The translations under genes were made by a program, and so were the position numbers. Positions 31,898 through 59,073 of a stretch of 64,000 bases of DNA are shown one piece after another. The first letter of the stretch is position 1, and each line of letters opens with the position of its first letter. Below the pieces are notes generated by a model, which saw only the letters and a program-made list of their open reading frames with translations, was not told where the DNA came from and did no database searches. Source of the stretch: Chloroflexota bacterium (lineage in GTDB: Bacteria; Chloroflexota; Anaerolineae; Anaerolineales; Villigracilaceae); contig JAKAKJ010000084.1 of NCBI GenBank assembly GCA_021824575.1, forward strand, positions 56,964-120,963. Direction: 5' to 3'.

Positions 31898-33115
31898 CTA
31901 TTCGCCCAGCAATTGAATCATATCTGATGCGAGATTGTCAATATATTGCCCGTTCGTGAGCAGGACAAAACCGGAGCTGCCGTCACGCAAAAATGAAATG
32001 TAACTTGAAAAGCCAGGTGTGACGCCAGACTTCCAAATCCGAGCCTGCGGACTATCGGGCCGGACGAGATCCCAGCCTAGCCCCGCACCCGTTCCGGGAT
32101 TTCGGCCCTGCGCGGCGGACGTCTGCGCGAGTTTCAATTCCGGGCTGAGAGGGGTCGAATTTGGCCGCATGTTGGCAACCAGAAAGCGCGCCATGTCGTT
32201 GAGCGTCGAATGCAAATATCCTGCCGGGCCCATCGCACCGCTCTGCGGAAAATAATCTGCGGGCGAGTCGTCATATTGATGGCCGCGCGCCAACCGGCTT
32301 TGTTGGTCGGCGGAAAGGCTCATGGTTGTGTCCATTAATCCGAGCGGCTTGCTGACGGAATCAAATTCGAGTTCGCCGTAATCTTTTCCAGCCTGGCGCG
32401 CGAGAATATCGCCGAGCAGTTCATAACCATAATTCGAATACACATATTCCGAGCCGGGCGCGTAATCAAGCCGGATGCTGTCCAGATACGTGTAAAGATC
32501 ATTTGGATCATCGGATTGGGCATCGCGCGGCAGGCCGGATCGGTGGGTGGCGAGGTCCACTATTTTGATTGGAATCCCTTTGAATGTCGGAGCCTGAATT
32601 CCATCTGGCAGATAATTTTGAATCGGGTCGTCCAGTTTGACCGTCCCGGCTTCGATGGCTTGCGCCAGCATGATTCCGGTAAACACTTTCGTAATCGAAC
32701 CGATTTCATATTCAGTATCCGACGTGATGGGCTGTTTGTCTTCGTTGCCTGTCAATCCGTAATTGAGAAACATGACCTGCAATTGATCAATTTGCGGATT
32801 GCGGATGGCGAGCGCGATGGACAAACCCGAATTGTGACTTTGGTTCATGAACTTCGCGGCGAGGCGGTCAACCTGCGCTTTGAGTTCGTCATCGTTGAAC
32901 AACAAAAGTTGGATCGTGGGAATCGGCGTGATCGTCGGCGTAGCTGTCGGCGTGGAGGTCGGGGATGGCGTGTCGGTGGGCTTGGCGGTTTCGGTAACGG
33001 GAGCCGCTGTCGGCGCGGAGGGAGACGGAGTCTGCGTCAACGCGGCGGATGCCGCGTCGCAGGCGGTCAGGTTGATCATCAGCAAGATTAACAGCAGAAG
33101 CAATGGTTTTCGCAT
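31898..33115 (-). CDS. Serine hydrolase lipoprotein (beta-lactamase class C family)
   Basis: This is a 405-residue exported lipoprotein with lipobox 'LTACDA' near residue 19 and a Pro/Thr linker ('PTDTPSPTSTPTATPT'). A penicillin-binding/beta-lactamase-fold domain follows: SxxK in 'EIGSITKVFTGIM', YxN in 'EYVYSNYGYELLG', and the KTG equivalent in 'RIWKSGVTPGFSSY'. Likely a DD-peptidase, esterase or amidase at the cell surface rather than a resistance enzyme. It leads a three-gene operon and is divergent from the USP gene. Confidence 0.88.
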   Translation of the reverse strand: MRKPLLLLLILLMINLTACDAASAALTQTPSPSAPTAAPVTETAKPTDTPSPTSTPTATPTITPIPTIQLLLFNDDELKAQVDRLAAKFMNQSHNSGLSIALAIRNPQIDQLQVMFLNYGLTGNEDKQPITSDTEYEIGSITKVFTGIMLAQAIEAGTVKLDDPIQNYLPDGIQAPTFKGIPIKIVDLATHRSGLPRDAQSDDPNDLYTYLDSIRLDYAPGSEYVYSNYGYELLGDILARQAGKDYGELEFDSVSKPLGLMDTTMSLSADQQSRLARGHQYDDSPADYFPQSGAMGPAGYLHSTLNDMARFLVANMRPNSTPLSPELKLAQTSAAQGRNPGTGAGLGWDLVRPDSPQARIWKSGVTPGFSSYISFLRDGSSGFVLLTNGQYIDNLASDMIQLLGE

Positions 33116-33240
33116 TCGCCAGATTATAAAGCGCAAACGCGGCGTTCAGCCGGACTTGAGGCATGACCCACTGGAAATGGGATGGCGGTTTGTGCTACAT
33201 TAGAAGTGGGAAGGGCGCCCTGTTTGAAAGGAGGCGGAAG

Positions 33241-45977: not shown

Positions 45978-46508
45978 TTAACTTGCTAACATGCCAACAG
46001 CAGTTTTTATATCCGGCGCGAATTGCAATAGCTCTTTCTGCGACGCGGATGTGTAACCGTCCATGCTGGTGAAAGCCTGACTGAAAACACTCTGCCATTC
46101 GTTTCCAATCAGGATGAGCGGCCTCCGGTGCAGGGAACCGATGATCATCAAATTCCAGGTGAGCGAGATTTCCGTAAGCGTGCCTGGACCGCCGGGGAGG
46201 GCAAGTGCCGCGTCGCAGCCTTCGATGAGACCCTGCAAGCGATCCATCAGTGTTTTCTTGCGCCATTCCTCCTTCACCCACGCATTGGGTCCAATAGCGC
46301 GCCAGCGCTCGATGTCTTCGCACGTCACGCCGATCACGTGTCCGCCCGCTTCAGCCGCGCCGCGCGAGACAGCTTCCATCGTGCCGATGTAGCCGCCGGT
46401 CAAAACGATGTGTCCGCGTTCGGCTAACAGCCTGCCAAGTTCCTGCGCTTCGGCATAGGCCGTTGAGCCTGCGTTGGGTTGTGAGCCGCCAAATACAGAG
46501 ACTTTCAT
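45978..46508 (-). CDS. LOG/TIGR00725-like Rossmann-fold protein
   Basis: This is a 176-residue protein of the LOG (lysine decarboxylase-like) superfamily. The N-terminal 'VSVFGGSQPNAGSTAYAEAQELG', 'VLTGGYIGTMEAVSRGAAEAGG' and the phosphoribohydrolase-type signature 'ALPGGPGTLTEISLTWNL' are clear. Relatives cleave cytokinin riboside monophosphates or other nucleotides to free base; the substrate here is unknown. A putative small RNA or leader with a strong terminator lies directly upstream on the same strand. Confidence 0.85.
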   Translation of the reverse strand: MKVSVFGGSQPNAGSTAYAEAQELGRLLAERGHIVLTGGYIGTMEAVSRGAAEAGGHVIGVTCEDIERWRAIGPNAWVKEEWRKKTLMDRLQGLIEGCDAALALPGGPGTLTEISLTWNLMIIGSLHRRPLILIGNEWQSVFSQAFTSMDGYTSASQKELLQFAPDIKTAVGMLAS

Positions 46509-46903
46509 GGTAATCGGTTTCCAGTGAGTAGTGGTCTAAAACAAAAACGGCTCGCCAAAGTCTGGGGAGCCGCTCATTGACACGACGAACCAAGCCTATC
46601 CAGACCAGGTGGATTTTGTCATGCACGGGGACGGTAACGGGTTCAACACAAGTGAAGCAGTCCTGTAGATCATGCCGCCGATTATACACGATTTTCTCTG
46701 CAGCAAAGCAGAGTCAAATTATAAGGAGTGGCTACATGATGAGTGAACGAAGTCAATGAGGTTGTAAAGATAACGTGGATAGAGACATTTCTTCAATTTG
46801 TGTGGATTGTAATAGTAGGAGATGAACAAACGCACGGCACAAGCTAACGCATGGGGTAAATGGGCGGGGTATGGTATATTCGGTTCTGATTATGAGACGA
46901 GGC
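46509..46903. other. Gene-free 395-bp stretch with a putative small RNA
   Basis: No credible protein gene is visible; the short ORFs here are unsupported. The left half holds the ncRNA candidate. An 18-base inverted repeat (CTCTGC-GCAGAG, 46696-46713) lies just upstream of its -10 box. The right half (about 46714-46870) shows nothing I recognise until the promoter-like GGTATATTC before the permease gene. Confidence 0.5.
46536..46674 (-). ncRNA. Putative ~140-nt small RNA or leader RNA
   Basis: A perfect TATAAT at 46681-46686 (minus strand) sets a start near 46674. A GC-rich hairpin (CGGCTC-GAGCCG plus two inner pairs, 46548-46572) followed by TTTTTGTTTT ends the transcript near 46536. Internal pairing is plausible, for example GCAUGACA-like with UGUCAAUG, and GAACC with GGUUC. 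The -35 is weak. No RNA family could be assigned by eye: the string UUGAACCCGUUACC is vaguely reminiscent of 6S RNA, but the ends do not pair as 6S should. Alternatively it is an attenuated leader of the LOG-like gene 28 bases downstream. Confidence 0.5.
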
Positions 46904-49262: not shown

Positions 49263-49268
49263 TATAAT
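49263..49268 (+). promoter_or_regulatory. Possible -10 box of cca (near-leaderless)
   Basis: TATAAT ends seven bases before the cca ATG at 49276, and no ribosome binding site is visible. The -35 region is poor, so support rests on the -10 and the distance alone. Confidence 0.4.
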
Positions 49269-49275
49269 TGCAACA

Positions 49276-50562
49276 ATGACACGCGTTTTGGACGACTTGC
49301 TTCGCAAAACATTGCCGGAGCCGCGGCTTGACTTGATTCGCCGCGTGGCGGACGAGGCGTCCGCGCTGAAGATGCCGATCTATATCGTCGGCGGCTTCGT
49401 TCGGGACCTCGTGCTGGGCCGGGACGGCCTCGACTTTGATCTCGTCGTGGAGGGAAATGCAATCGCACTGGCACATTCTCTCGCATCGAAATATGGCGGC
49501 AAAGTCACCGCACACGAGAAATTTGGAACGGCAAAGATAGATATTCGAGAATGGATGTTGGAGAGTAGTAAAGCGAACGAGGACTATTCTCTAGTCTCTA
49601 TTGATCTGATTTCTTCGCGCAGCGAAACGTACAAGCATCCTGCCGCACTGCCAACCGTCAAAATGGGAAGTATCGAAGACGACATTCGCCGACGAGACTT
49701 TACGATCAACACGCTCGCCGTCCGCCTGGACGGTCCCCATTTTGGCGAGCTGCGTGATGATCTCGGCGGCTTGGATGATTTGGAAAAGAAAATCATCCGC
49801 GTGCTGCACGAGCGTTCCTTCAATGACGATCCGACTCGCATGTACCGCGCCGTTCGCTATGAACAGCGTTACGGATTCAAAATCGCAGATGAAACATTGG
49901 CTTTGATCCCGGAAGCGCGCGCCTTGGTTGACAAATTATCCGCGCAGCGCATCCGCCACGAATTGGATTTGATTTTGGAAGAACCCCATGTTGCATCACT
50001 GCTTGCGCGTTTGGCTGAACTGGATTTGCTCAAACCAATTCACGCTGCATTGTCGTTTGATGATGCGGCGCGGCAAAGACTTGATAAAGCGAATTTTTCG
50101 CCGGATTATTCAGTCCAACATTTGACGCCAGCGAATTTACGCTGGTTGTTGTGGCTGATAAATCTTTCCGAAAAGCAAATCGAGTCGGTGAATAAGCGTC
50201 TGCATTTCACATCAATTCTTTATAATGCGTTGGCCGCATCATCGAATCTTCTTTTCTCTCTGTCTTCTTTCGTTGATTTAAAACCAAGTCAATGTGTTAC
50301 CCAGCTCGACGAATTTCCTCCGTTTTCGATTTACGCGGTCTCCCTCGCTGCGCCAACTGGAAAATCAAAAGAAAATTTGGAAAAATATTTAACCGAGTGG
50401 CGGCACATCAAACCGAAGACAACCGGTCATGATTTGAAGAAGCTTGGCATCGAGCCGGGACCAAAATATCAAGAGATTTTATGGACACTCCGCGCTGCAT
50501 GGTTGGATGGAAAAGTAGCGAATGGGCAAGAAGAAGAAAGTTTATTGAAAAGCATTCTGTGA
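49276..50562 (+). CDS. cca: CCA tRNA nucleotidyltransferase / poly(A) polymerase family
   Basis: This 428-residue class II nucleotidyltransferase has the head 'IYIVGGFVRDLVLGRDGLDFDLVVEGN' with the catalytic GG and DxD motif, 'RRRDFTINTLAVRL', the neck 'DDPTRMYRAVRYEQRYGFKI' and 'LSAQRIRHELDLIL'. It adds or repairs the 3' CCA of tRNA; A-adding or poly(A) polymerase variants look similar, so the exact specificity is inferred. The C-terminal helical region is divergent. It lies 15 bases after the permease pair and has its own TATAAT box. Confidence 0.88.
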   Translation: MTRVLDDLLRKTLPEPRLDLIRRVADEASALKMPIYIVGGFVRDLVLGRDGLDFDLVVEGNAIALAHSLASKYGGKVTAHEKFGTAKIDIREWMLESSKANEDYSLVSIDLISSRSETYKHPAALPTVKMGSIEDDIRRRDFTINTLAVRLDGPHFGELRDDLGGLDDLEKKIIRVLHERSFNDDPTRMYRAVRYEQRYGFKIADETLALIPEARALVDKLSAQRIRHELDLILEEPHVASLLARLAELDLLKPIHAALSFDDAARQRLDKANFSPDYSVQHLTPANLRWLLWLINLSEKQIESVNKRLHFTSILYNALAASSNLLFSLSSFVDLKPSQCVTQLDEFPPFSIYAVSLAAPTGKSKENLEKYLTEWRHIKPKTTGHDLKKLGIEPGPKYQEILWTLRAAWLDGKVANGQEEESLLKSIL

Positions 50563-50584
50563 AACTTATAAATCATCGTAAGGT

Positions 50585-50590
50585 TATAAT
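50585..50590 (+). promoter_or_regulatory. -10 box of the IMPase gene (leaderless geometry)
   Basis: TATAAT is followed by exactly six bases and then the ATG at 50597. There is no ribosome binding site. The -35 element is not clear. Confidence 0.5.
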
Positions 50591-50596
50591 TCCATC

Positions 50597-51373
50597 ATGA
50601 ATCTCAACCTCGAACCCTACCTTACCTTTGCAAAACAACTCGCTTATCGCGCTGGACGTATTACCCTGAGTTATTACAACAAAGGGATTCAGCATGATTT
50701 GAAATCCGATGCTACGCCCGTCACCGCCGCCGACCGCGCCGCGGAGCAATTCATTCGTGGCGAAATCGAAAGGGCCTATCCGGGTCATGCCATCGTTGGC
50801 GAGGAATTTGGCGAAACAGCCGGAAGCGGCAATCCGTTTTGTTGGATCGTGGACCCGATTGACGGAACCAAATCCTTCATGAAAGCCGTGCCGCTTTATT
50901 CCGTTTTGATCGCGCTGGAAATCGAAGGCGTTTCGCGCGTTGGCGTGGTTTGCTTTCCGGCATTGGACGAAATGCTTTACGCCGCCGATGGCCTCGGCGC
51001 GTGGTGGAACAACCAACGCGCACATGTTTCAAAAGTGTCAAAGTTGAAAGAGGCGGTTTTCTGTTATACAAGTTGGTCGGGGTTTCGAACAAAGAAGAAG
51101 CTCAAACTTTTTGAGCGCCTGCACAAGGAATGTTTCTACGGGCGCGGCTGGAGCGACGCGTATGGTTATCTTCTCGTCGCAACCGGGCGCGCGGAAATGT
51201 TCTTCGATCCGGGAATCAAAATTTGGGATGTGGGGCCGTTTCCGCCAATCTTTCGCGAGGCGGGTGGCTACTTTGGTTCGTGGGACGGCAAAGCCGGTCA
51301 TACCTTTGGCGAGGGATTGGCCACTAACGCCGCGCTCCGCTCCAAAGTCCTGAAGATGATTCGGGAAACATAA
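50597..51373 (+). CDS. Inositol-monophosphatase-family phosphatase (HisN-like)
   Basis: This 258-residue Mg-dependent phosphatase has the first metal motif region 'SDATPVTAADRAAEQFIR', 'HAIVGEEFGE' with the Glu ligand, 'WIVDPIDGTKSFMKAVP' (the DPIDGT motif, typical of HisN-type with K-S-F), and a second motif 'GIKIWDVGPFPPIFREAGG'. The last reads WDVGP instead of the usual WDxA[AG]. It may dephosphorylate histidinol phosphate or an inositol/sugar phosphate; the KSF variant favours histidinol phosphate but no his genes lie nearby. It starts 35 bases after cca. Confidence 0.9.
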   Translation: MNLNLEPYLTFAKQLAYRAGRITLSYYNKGIQHDLKSDATPVTAADRAAEQFIRGEIERAYPGHAIVGEEFGETAGSGNPFCWIVDPIDGTKSFMKAVPLYSVLIALEIEGVSRVGVVCFPALDEMLYAADGLGAWWNNQRAHVSKVSKLKEAVFCYTSWSGFRTKKKLKLFERLHKECFYGRGWSDAYGYLLVATGRAEMFFDPGIKIWDVGPFPPIFREAGGYFGSWDGKAGHTFGEGLATNAALRSKVLKMIRET

Positions 51374-51391
51374 TCCAATTTTGTTTTTCTG

Positions 51392-51420
51392 TTGCTTTTC
51401 CATCCGGCTTGTCCTATAAT
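51392..51420 (+). promoter_or_regulatory. Promoter of the DUF2726 gene (leaderless)
   Basis: TTGCTT, 17 bases and TATAAT precede six bases and then ATG at 51427. The expected +1 is the A of the ATG. This supports 51427 rather than the 51409 start in the ORF track, which lies inside the promoter. Confidence 0.65.
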
Positions 51421-51426
51421 CTTTTC

Positions 51427-52050
51427 ATGGCGGACATTTCGTCGGGCAAGCTGGATGTATCCATAAAACCGCAGGACGAGCCTCTCCCATATCGTCTGCG
51501 CGAACATTTTCTTTCCACACCTGAAATCGCTTTATACCAGACGCTTCTGGAAATGTCGGAAGGGCGTTATATTATTTGCCCGAAAGTCGCACTCAACGAT
51601 ATTTTTTTGATCGTCCGCCCAAACGAAAACGTCCACTACTTCAATAAAATTTTTCGCAAGCACGTTGACTTTTTGTTGTGCCAGCCGCGCACATTCAAAC
51701 CGGAGATTGGCGTTGAATTGGTCAAGCCCATTGCCAAGAACGAGACGCGCAGCAGCGATCAATTCATGGAGGATTTATTTCTGACGGCTGGCTTACCATT
51801 GGTACACATTCCATCCGGCGAACATTATGAGATCGCAGACGTTGTTACGCTGTTTCAGTTGGCTGTGACCAAGGCGAAACAAGGTGCGCATACGGCGCAG
51901 CTTTCACAGGACTCAGTGCCGGCCTGCCCGATCTGCGGCAAAATGATGGTTCTCAGAACATACCGTTCCGGACCTCAAAACGGCCAGCTTTACTATGGGT
52001 GCATTGACAACCCGAAGTGCCCCGGCATGGTTGCAATAAAAAATGGATGA
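51427..52050 (+). CDS. DUF2726 protein with C-terminal zinc ribbon
   Basis: This is a 207-residue protein. A DUF2726 domain of the restriction-endonuclease-like superfamily covers about residues 20-145, with 'EIALYQTLLEM' (Glu), 'KHVDFLLCQPRTFKPEIGVEL' (the Asp and Glu of a likely PD-(D/E)xK core). A C-terminal four-cysteine zinc ribbon, 'CPICGKMMVLRTY' with 'YYGCIDNPKCPG', resembles topoisomerase C-terminal ribbons. Such proteins are of unknown function; nucleic-acid binding or cleavage is plausible. It ends at a perfect terminator. Confidence 0.85.
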   Translation: MADISSGKLDVSIKPQDEPLPYRLREHFLSTPEIALYQTLLEMSEGRYIICPKVALNDIFLIVRPNENVHYFNKIFRKHVDFLLCQPRTFKPEIGVELVKPIAKNETRSSDQFMEDLFLTAGLPLVHIPSGEHYEIADVVTLFQLAVTKAKQGAHTAQLSQDSVPACPICGKMMVLRTYRSGPQNGQLYYGCIDNPKCPGMVAIKNG

Positions 52051-52075
52051 CCTGGTTTTGCCAGGTCATCTTTTT
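52046..52075 (+). terminator. Rho-independent terminator after the DUF2726 gene
   Basis: GATGACCTGG, a TTTTG loop and its exact complement, followed by TTTTT, overlap the stop codon. The convergent SDR gene ends immediately beyond. Confidence 0.9.
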
Positions 52076-58139: not shown

Positions 58140-59060
58140 TTATTGTTTTCGGTTCGAAGCTTTTCCGCACGTGCATCCGCCGCCTTCGTGACGGTCGCAC
58201 GGCGCTTCGGATTTGCGGCGCAGGGCTTCGAGTTCATCCCACGGCTGGATCTCGTCCCGGTCAAAGGTGAACCATTGCGAACGCTCTTCAGTTTCGATGG
58301 CGACAACGACTTTATTTGTCATCGGCAGAACATCCACAACTTTGCCTTCGCCCTTTGGTGTGACAACGCGTTTATTGCGCTTGGGCAGTTGCTTGCGCGC
58401 TTCGACATATTGCTCGTATTCGTAAATCAGACAGCAGCGCAGACGTCCGCACATGCCGGTGATTTCTTCCGGTGTGAGCGAGATGCCTTGTTCTTTCGCC
58501 ATCTTGATCGAGATGGGACTGAAGTCGGTCAGGAATTTGGAGCAGCAGCGGGTTTCGAGTCCGCAGGCGCCCATGCCGCCGAGGAGTTTCGCCACATCGC
58601 GCGGACCGATCTGCCGCATCTCGATGTGCGTGTTCGGATACAAGTCCTGCATATCCTTTTTCAGCGATTTGAGATCCACTTTTTCTTCCGTCTCGGAGCT
58701 GAAGAGAAAGGCCAGCCGTGAGCCGTCGTAGTTGTATTCCGCGGCGATGACCTTGACGCCATCGAGATGAAGTTCCGCGGCGCGGGCGCGGCAGTTGATC
58801 ATAGCCTCGGTCTGCTTGGATTGCCAGGATTGCTGGAGCAGGAGATCGCGCGGCGTGGCGCGTCGTTCCACAGACTTCCATCCGCCCTCAGGCACTGGAG
58901 GTGTTTCCTGTAGAACTGTCACAACTTCGCCCAGATGTTTGCCGCGGGACGTATCCACAATGACGCGTTCGCCGACGTTCAAGTTCGGGAACGCGCTGGA
59001 GTCGAAATGGTAGATTTTACCGATCCGTGTAAATCGGACACCGATAATGGTTGGTTGCAT
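58140..59060 (-). CDS. ricT: RicT/PSP1-domain protein (RNase Y complex type)
   Basis: This is a 306-residue PSP1 C-terminal-domain protein: N-terminal 'VGVRFTRIGKIYHFDSS' and 'VIVDTSRGKHLGEVV', then the Cys-rich part 'GACGLETRCCSKFLTDF' and 'EEITGMCGRLRCCLIYEYEQY', typical of RicT/YaaT, which binds an iron-sulfur cluster and with RicA/RicF guides RNase Y in Bacillus. The C-terminal tail adds further Cys/His ('CDRHEGGGCTCG'). The ATG at 59060 is seven bases after a perfect TATAAT, supporting a leaderless mRNA; the ORF-track start would add 22 residues through the promoter. Confidence 0.92.
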   Translation of the reverse strand: MQPTIIGVRFTRIGKIYHFDSSAFPNLNVGERVIVDTSRGKHLGEVVTVLQETPPVPEGGWKSVERRATPRDLLLQQSWQSKQTEAMINCRARAAELHLDGVKVIAAEYNYDGSRLAFLFSSETEEKVDLKSLKKDMQDLYPNTHIEMRQIGPRDVAKLLGGMGACGLETRCCSKFLTDFSPISIKMAKEQGISLTPEEITGMCGRLRCCLIYEYEQYVEARKQLPKRNKRVVTPKGEGKVVDVLPMTNKVVVAIETEERSQWFTFDRDEIQPWDELEALRRKSEAPCDRHEGGGCTCGKASNRKQ

Positions 59061-59067
59061 GACTGTA

Positions 59068-59073
59068 ATTATA
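59068..59073 (-). promoter_or_regulatory. -10 box of ricT (leaderless geometry)
   Basis: Minus-strand TATAAT is followed by seven bases and the ATG at 59060, with no ribosome binding site. The -35 region is weak. Confidence 0.5.

Follow-up and report, generated by a model that had tools for sequence, protein, structure and literature searches.

The window, by which we mean the whole 64-kb stretch of Chloroflexota DNA analyzed here, contains three consecutive genes encoding a cca-type tRNA nucleotidyltransferase, an inositol monophosphatase (IMPase) and a DUF2726 protein that also has a C4 zinc ribbon (Table 1). They follow an ABC permease gene, and all gaps in this co-directional series are short: 15 nt between the permease gene and cca, 34 nt between cca and the IMPase gene and 53 nt between the IMPase and DUF2726 genes. 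A sequence-only reading of this DNA had proposed that each of the three genes has a -10 box directly before its start codon. The hexamers, the ATGs and the 7-, 6- and 6-nt spacers that it listed proved exact to the base, and the TTGCTT-17-TATAAT arrangement that it described for DUF2726 was recovered; this is the only TTG-type -35 candidate among the three genes. A consensus promoter scanner overlooks all three promoters because it demands a -35. The lack of ribosome binding sites claimed in the same reading was also borne out: inspection of the three genes revealed no Shine-Dalgarno (SD) sequence at the usual position upstream of any of their starts. An AAGG precedes the IMPase gene, but at 13 nt from the ATG it lies beyond the normal SD distance.

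The adjacency of cca, IMPase and DUF2726 recurs in many same-family genomes, where the last two genes are sometimes found in swapped order. Many of these relatives encode a fusion protein of about 900 aa in which DHH/DHHA1 and CBS domains precede the cca domain (for example, L061 1495-4251, minus strand), an organization shared by about half of the relatives' cca loci, while the gene in the window is stand-alone. The cca of the window is 61% identical to that of a Chloroflexi MAG.

Table 1. Features of the three-gene cluster and further leaderless candidates in the window
Feature	Position	Strand	Details
cca -10 box, TATAAT	49263..49268	+	spacer tgcaaca, 7 nt to ATG 49276
cca-type tRNA nucleotidyltransferase / poly(A) polymerase family gene	49276..50562	+	428 aa; Pfam PF01743, PF12627
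IMPase-gene -10 box, TATAAT	50585..50590	+	spacer tccatc, 6 nt to ATG 50597
Inositol monophosphatase (IMPase) family gene	50597..51373	+	258 aa; Pfam PF00459
DUF2726 possible -35, TTGCTT	51392..51397	+	17 nt 5' of -10; same arrangement in orthologues L103, L104
DUF2726 -10 box, TATAAT	51415..51420	+	spacer cttttc, 6 nt to ATG 51427
DUF2726 + C4 zinc-ribbon gene	51427..52050	+	207 aa; Pfam PF10881; PF01396 sub-threshold
Intrinsic terminator 3' of DUF2726	52045..52071	+	12-pair stem, then T run; sole strong one in cluster
Leaderless candidate, beta-lactamase-family (serine hydrolase) gene	33113..33128	-	TATAAT, 7 nt, ATG 33115
Leaderless candidate, PSP1-domain gene	59058..59073	-	TATAAT, 7 nt, ATG 59060

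Spacing of TATAAT and ATG in the window and the genome

The window contains seven sites of the pattern TATAATN{6,7}ATG where 0.43 would be expected, and none of 100 shuffles reaches seven, which supports the view of the sequence-only reading that such spacing is hard to explain by chance. Two of the four sites outside the cluster open real genes, with N-termini that support the starts (Table 1); that of the serine hydrolase resembles a lipoprotein signal peptide. Another, at 46671-46686 on the minus strand, has a 7-nt spacer and opens only a 25-codon frame, 5' of a gene on the same strand that starts at 46508. This site is possibly a leader or short ORF, or else due to chance.

We extended the count to 1.84 Mb out of the 3.64-Mb draft genome, using no annotation. 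As the sequence-only reading led us to expect, TATAAT is enriched 6 to 7 nt before ATG, with 63 occurrences against 18.8 expected. ATG counts at spacers 0 to 9 are 1, 11, 2, 4, 8, 9, 26, 37, 14 and 11, and the values at spacers 6 and 7 compare with 9.4 per spacer at distances of 15 to 60 nt (Poisson P ~1e-15). In the same sample, TAAAAT gives a weaker peak before ATG, the scrambled hexamers TAATAT, ATATTA and TTATAA give none, and GTG and TTG starts show little or no peak after TATAAT. The size of the effect depends on the control. Genome-wide, TATAATN5-8ATG has 155 raw matches and the same hexamer at spacers 26-29 has 81, so that about half of the raw matches are background and the exact-hexamer enrichment is about 2-fold, not 7-fold; a reversed-pattern control (22 matches versus 155) was dropped as the main control, as it understated the background.

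The cca, IMPase and DUF2726 genes are the single run of three leaderless candidates in the 1.84-Mb sample, for which the genome's rate predicts from 0.02 such runs with exact hexamers up to 0.23 when one mismatch is allowed. We considered a special cluster of leaderless genes and rejected it, given a single triple whose p ranges from 0.02 to 0.2 by definition and is post hoc. The run is a mild coincidence, unremarkable in itself.

Candidate leaderless genes and their promoters

Genes were called with a simple coding-score program that considers nothing but the coding score and the start codon when placing starts and is therefore blind to the -10 signal. Among 1453 called genes, 98 have a -10 box (TAnnnT, at most one mismatch to TATAAT) 5-9 nt before the start, versus 27-58 in equal control bins; for exact TATAAT, the figures are 48 genes versus 6-26. 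The excess corresponds to about 60 leaderless candidates, or about 4% of genes (some 1 gene in 25). SD sequences, for their part, peak strongly 7-13 nt before starts genome-wide, and SD-led initiation thus dominates the genome.

The leaderless candidates differ from other genes in several respects. An SD sequence (at least 5 matches) is found in 1% of them versus 33% of the others, a divergent upstream neighbor in 46% versus 20%, and a tight operon-inner position in 6% versus 30%. Counted the other way, the hexamer is present in 5 of 419 operon-inner genes versus 60 of 679 head-like genes. Spacers of 6, 7, 8 and 9 nt are found in 30, 24, 15 and 13 candidates, respectively, 6 nt being the mode. 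A G occupies the extended -10 position in 54% of the candidates and a complete TGn is present in 24 of 83. In the source genome, TTGACA is not enriched as a -35 at 16-18 nt in either leaderless or leadered promoters. Two other sequences were noticed post hoc, both in small numbers: TTGC 16-18 nt before the -10 of leaderless genes (8 versus 1.6, a weak signal) and TTGA upstream of the -10 in leadered promoters (6 versus 0.7).

To calibrate the initiator, we used a set of 81 TATAAT boxes located 18-60 nt before other genes and independent of the leaderless candidates. A pyrimidine-purine step with its purine at +7 after the hexamer is present in 37 of these 81 promoters, compared to 11-28 for any other position, and +6 shows an enrichment of C (P ~9e-6). 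A 6-nt spacer places the A of the ATG exactly at +7. This is the situation of the IMPase and DUF2726 genes, both of which also have C at +6; cca has C at +6 and an A at +7 (49275), the ATG following one base later. Predicted transcription starts are accordingly 49275 or 49276 for cca, 50597 for the IMPase gene and 51427 for DUF2726, and the cca transcript may have one extra A before its AUG.

Conservation in orthologues and relatives

In sampled same-family genomes, 10 of 29 DUF2726 orthologues have TATAAT or TATACT 5-9 nt before the start, against at most 5 in any other 5-nt bin. For cca, 8 of 24 orthologues have a -10 box in this interval and at most 2 in any other; TACAAT and TAAAAT at 6-7 nt from the start are found among the cca orthologues. 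Upstream of both genes the hexamer persists despite diverged flanks. IMPase presents another picture, with a -10 at 5-9 nt in 1 of 24 orthologues, that of relative G126 (L078), where the geometry is the same as in the window. Several IMPase orthologues either carry an SD-like sequence or overlap with the gene before them, and the IMPase promoter of the source genome looks like a recent switch. Some of the DUF2726 orthologues L103, L104, L106, L107 and L108 have a -10 box and a leader several nucleotides longer, in which a GAGG-like SD may be present or missing; this gives the impression that a short leader was acquired or lost.

Comparison with 370 kb of the nearest sampled genome (G085) reveals that the leaderless state is kept in 5 of 7 leaderless genes versus 2 of 111 others (P ~2e-6). 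In some of these pairs the TATAAT-N6-ATG block is kept and the flanks are different.

For comparisons across genomes we used N26-29 as the spacing control. This interval is itself enriched for leadered promoters, making the comparison conservative. All 12 sampled genomes of the family are significant over this control, with ratios of 1.7-2.8. The median ratio is 1.09 in other families of the class (11 of 115 genomes significant) and 1.12 in other classes of the phylum (2 of 49 significant). The leaderless signal is thus strong in the sampled genomes of the source family and patchy elsewhere in its class and phylum, where base composition limits the power of the test in GC-rich genomes. The suggestion, made in the sequence-only reading, of systematic leaderless translation in this lineage holds as far as the recurrence of the signal throughout the family is concerned; as a statement about genes it goes too far, the signal being confined to a small minority in a genome dominated by SD-led initiation. 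Four genomes from other families of the same class (G039, G099, G108 and G093) have ratios of 2.4-4.0, as high as or above those of the source family. It is possible that the signal was gained or retained more than once in the class. We advance tentatively, at slightly less than even chances, the idea that leaderless promoters dominated by the -10 have expanded in one Chloroflexota family to well above the level in the rest of its class and phylum, and that within this family individual genes switch from one initiation mode, SD-led or leaderless, to the other.

Explanations for the locus and known systems

Leaderless transcription of cca, IMPase and DUF2726 is likely. The explanation that we favor, with considerable confidence, is that all three genes are expressed from leaderless mRNAs set by their -10 elements and are members of the minority class described above. 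Each TATAAT would act as the -10 element of a housekeeping-sigma promoter, and RNA polymerase would start at the A of the ATG for IMPase and DUF2726, and at this A or one base before it for cca. Ribosomes recognize the 5'-terminal AUG of leaderless mRNAs, and the three transcripts would be engaged in this way in the absence of an SD. This explanation is preferred because the -10 is locked in position, SD sequences are excluded, the class prefers the heads of transcription units, the initiator matches and the arrangement is conserved in orthologues. Against it stand the lack of a detectable TTGACA -35 in the class, the near-absence of the IMPase promoter from orthologues, and the background share of the raw matches.

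The short gaps between the genes also suit an operon with the upstream ABC permease gene, in which translation would proceed by reinitiation or coupling on a read-through mRNA and the TATAATs would be chance features of AT-rich spacers. A scan of the cluster found no strong terminator before the end of DUF2726, the only one lying after this gene, and the gene neighborhood recurs in relatives. We nevertheless regard this as improbable: it leaves three exact hexamers at a locked spacing that is itself enriched genome-wide, and a hexamer that recurs before DUF2726 and cca orthologues whose flanks have diverged. Since no strong terminator separates the genes, read-through transcripts from upstream are likely to occur alongside the leaderless ones, with which they are compatible. 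The sequence-only reading, which opposed leaderless promoters to a shared operon, is thus supported as to the genes' own promoters by the position-locked -10s; its exclusion of an operon is not established, in view of the missing terminators and of the IMPase promoter being missing in most relatives.

Even less probable, in our opinion, is that the mRNA has a leader and that the hexamer binds the ribosome or S1 in place of an SD, a role proposed for such elements in Bacteroidetes. A distance of 6-7 nt from the start is usual for a ribosome binding site, and the genes concerned have no SD. However, a translational signal would be needed equally in operon-inner genes, from which the hexamer is nearly missing, and would account neither for a perfect match to the -10 consensus, with its preference for G at the extended position, nor for the coincidence of the ATG with the initiator step of leadered promoters.

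A variant of the favored explanation deserves more credit than these two, although we consider it somewhat unlikely: transcription could start 1-5 nt 5' of the ATG, so that some genes, cca first, would be functionally but not strictly leaderless. The spread of spacers from 6 to 9 nt around an initiator that peaks at +7 and the CA step one base before the cca ATG speak in its favor. On the other hand, the modal spacer among called genes is 6, and in IMPase and DUF2726 the A of the ATG is exactly at +7.

Leaderless initiation itself is already described, Chloroflexi included. Zheng et al. (2011, PMC3160421) reported TA-led leaderless genes across bacteria as a minority class with no SD and a TAtaaT located some 12 nt 5' of the start; of 12 Chloroflexi genomes, 4 had such genes, which made up 4.0-5.7% of the total. 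Motif, distance and share are alike in the source genome. Anaerolinea is unmentioned in the text of that article, and our literature search found no article dealing with leaderless genes of either Anaerolineae or Dehalococcoides. Compared to Zheng et al., we add an initiator calibration within the genome, a conservation test in orthologues and the finding of one family consistently above the rest of its phylum.

In Mycobacterium tuberculosis, leaderless transcripts represent 22% of expressed genes and were mapped experimentally (Cortes et al. 2013, PMC3898074), whereas the share of about 4% here is deduced from sequence. Both systems have a -10 with no detectable -35, a preference for C at -1 and a start at the ATG, which is a prediction in our case. 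They differ in the -10 itself, TATAAT here versus a degenerate TANNNT in M. tuberculosis, and in the extended TGn, which is present in 7% of cases in the latter, well below the proportion observed here. According to the account of GeneMarkS-2 (Lomsadze et al. 2018) given in PMC9581028, leaderless use is predicted in 21.6% of bacterial species. As in the leaderless classes described there, a promoter signal directly 5' of starts coexists with SD-led genes in one genome; our case derives from our own motif counts.

The general picture of translation initiation is unchanged, and the finding is real but ordinary. Its additions are modest: a contrast at the family level and some examples of a switch in initiation mode. 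Close relatives provide orthologues that differ in this mode and could be used for studying moves between SD-led and leaderless initiation and, for annotation of the source family, an ATG located 6-7 nt after TATAAT is a likely start.
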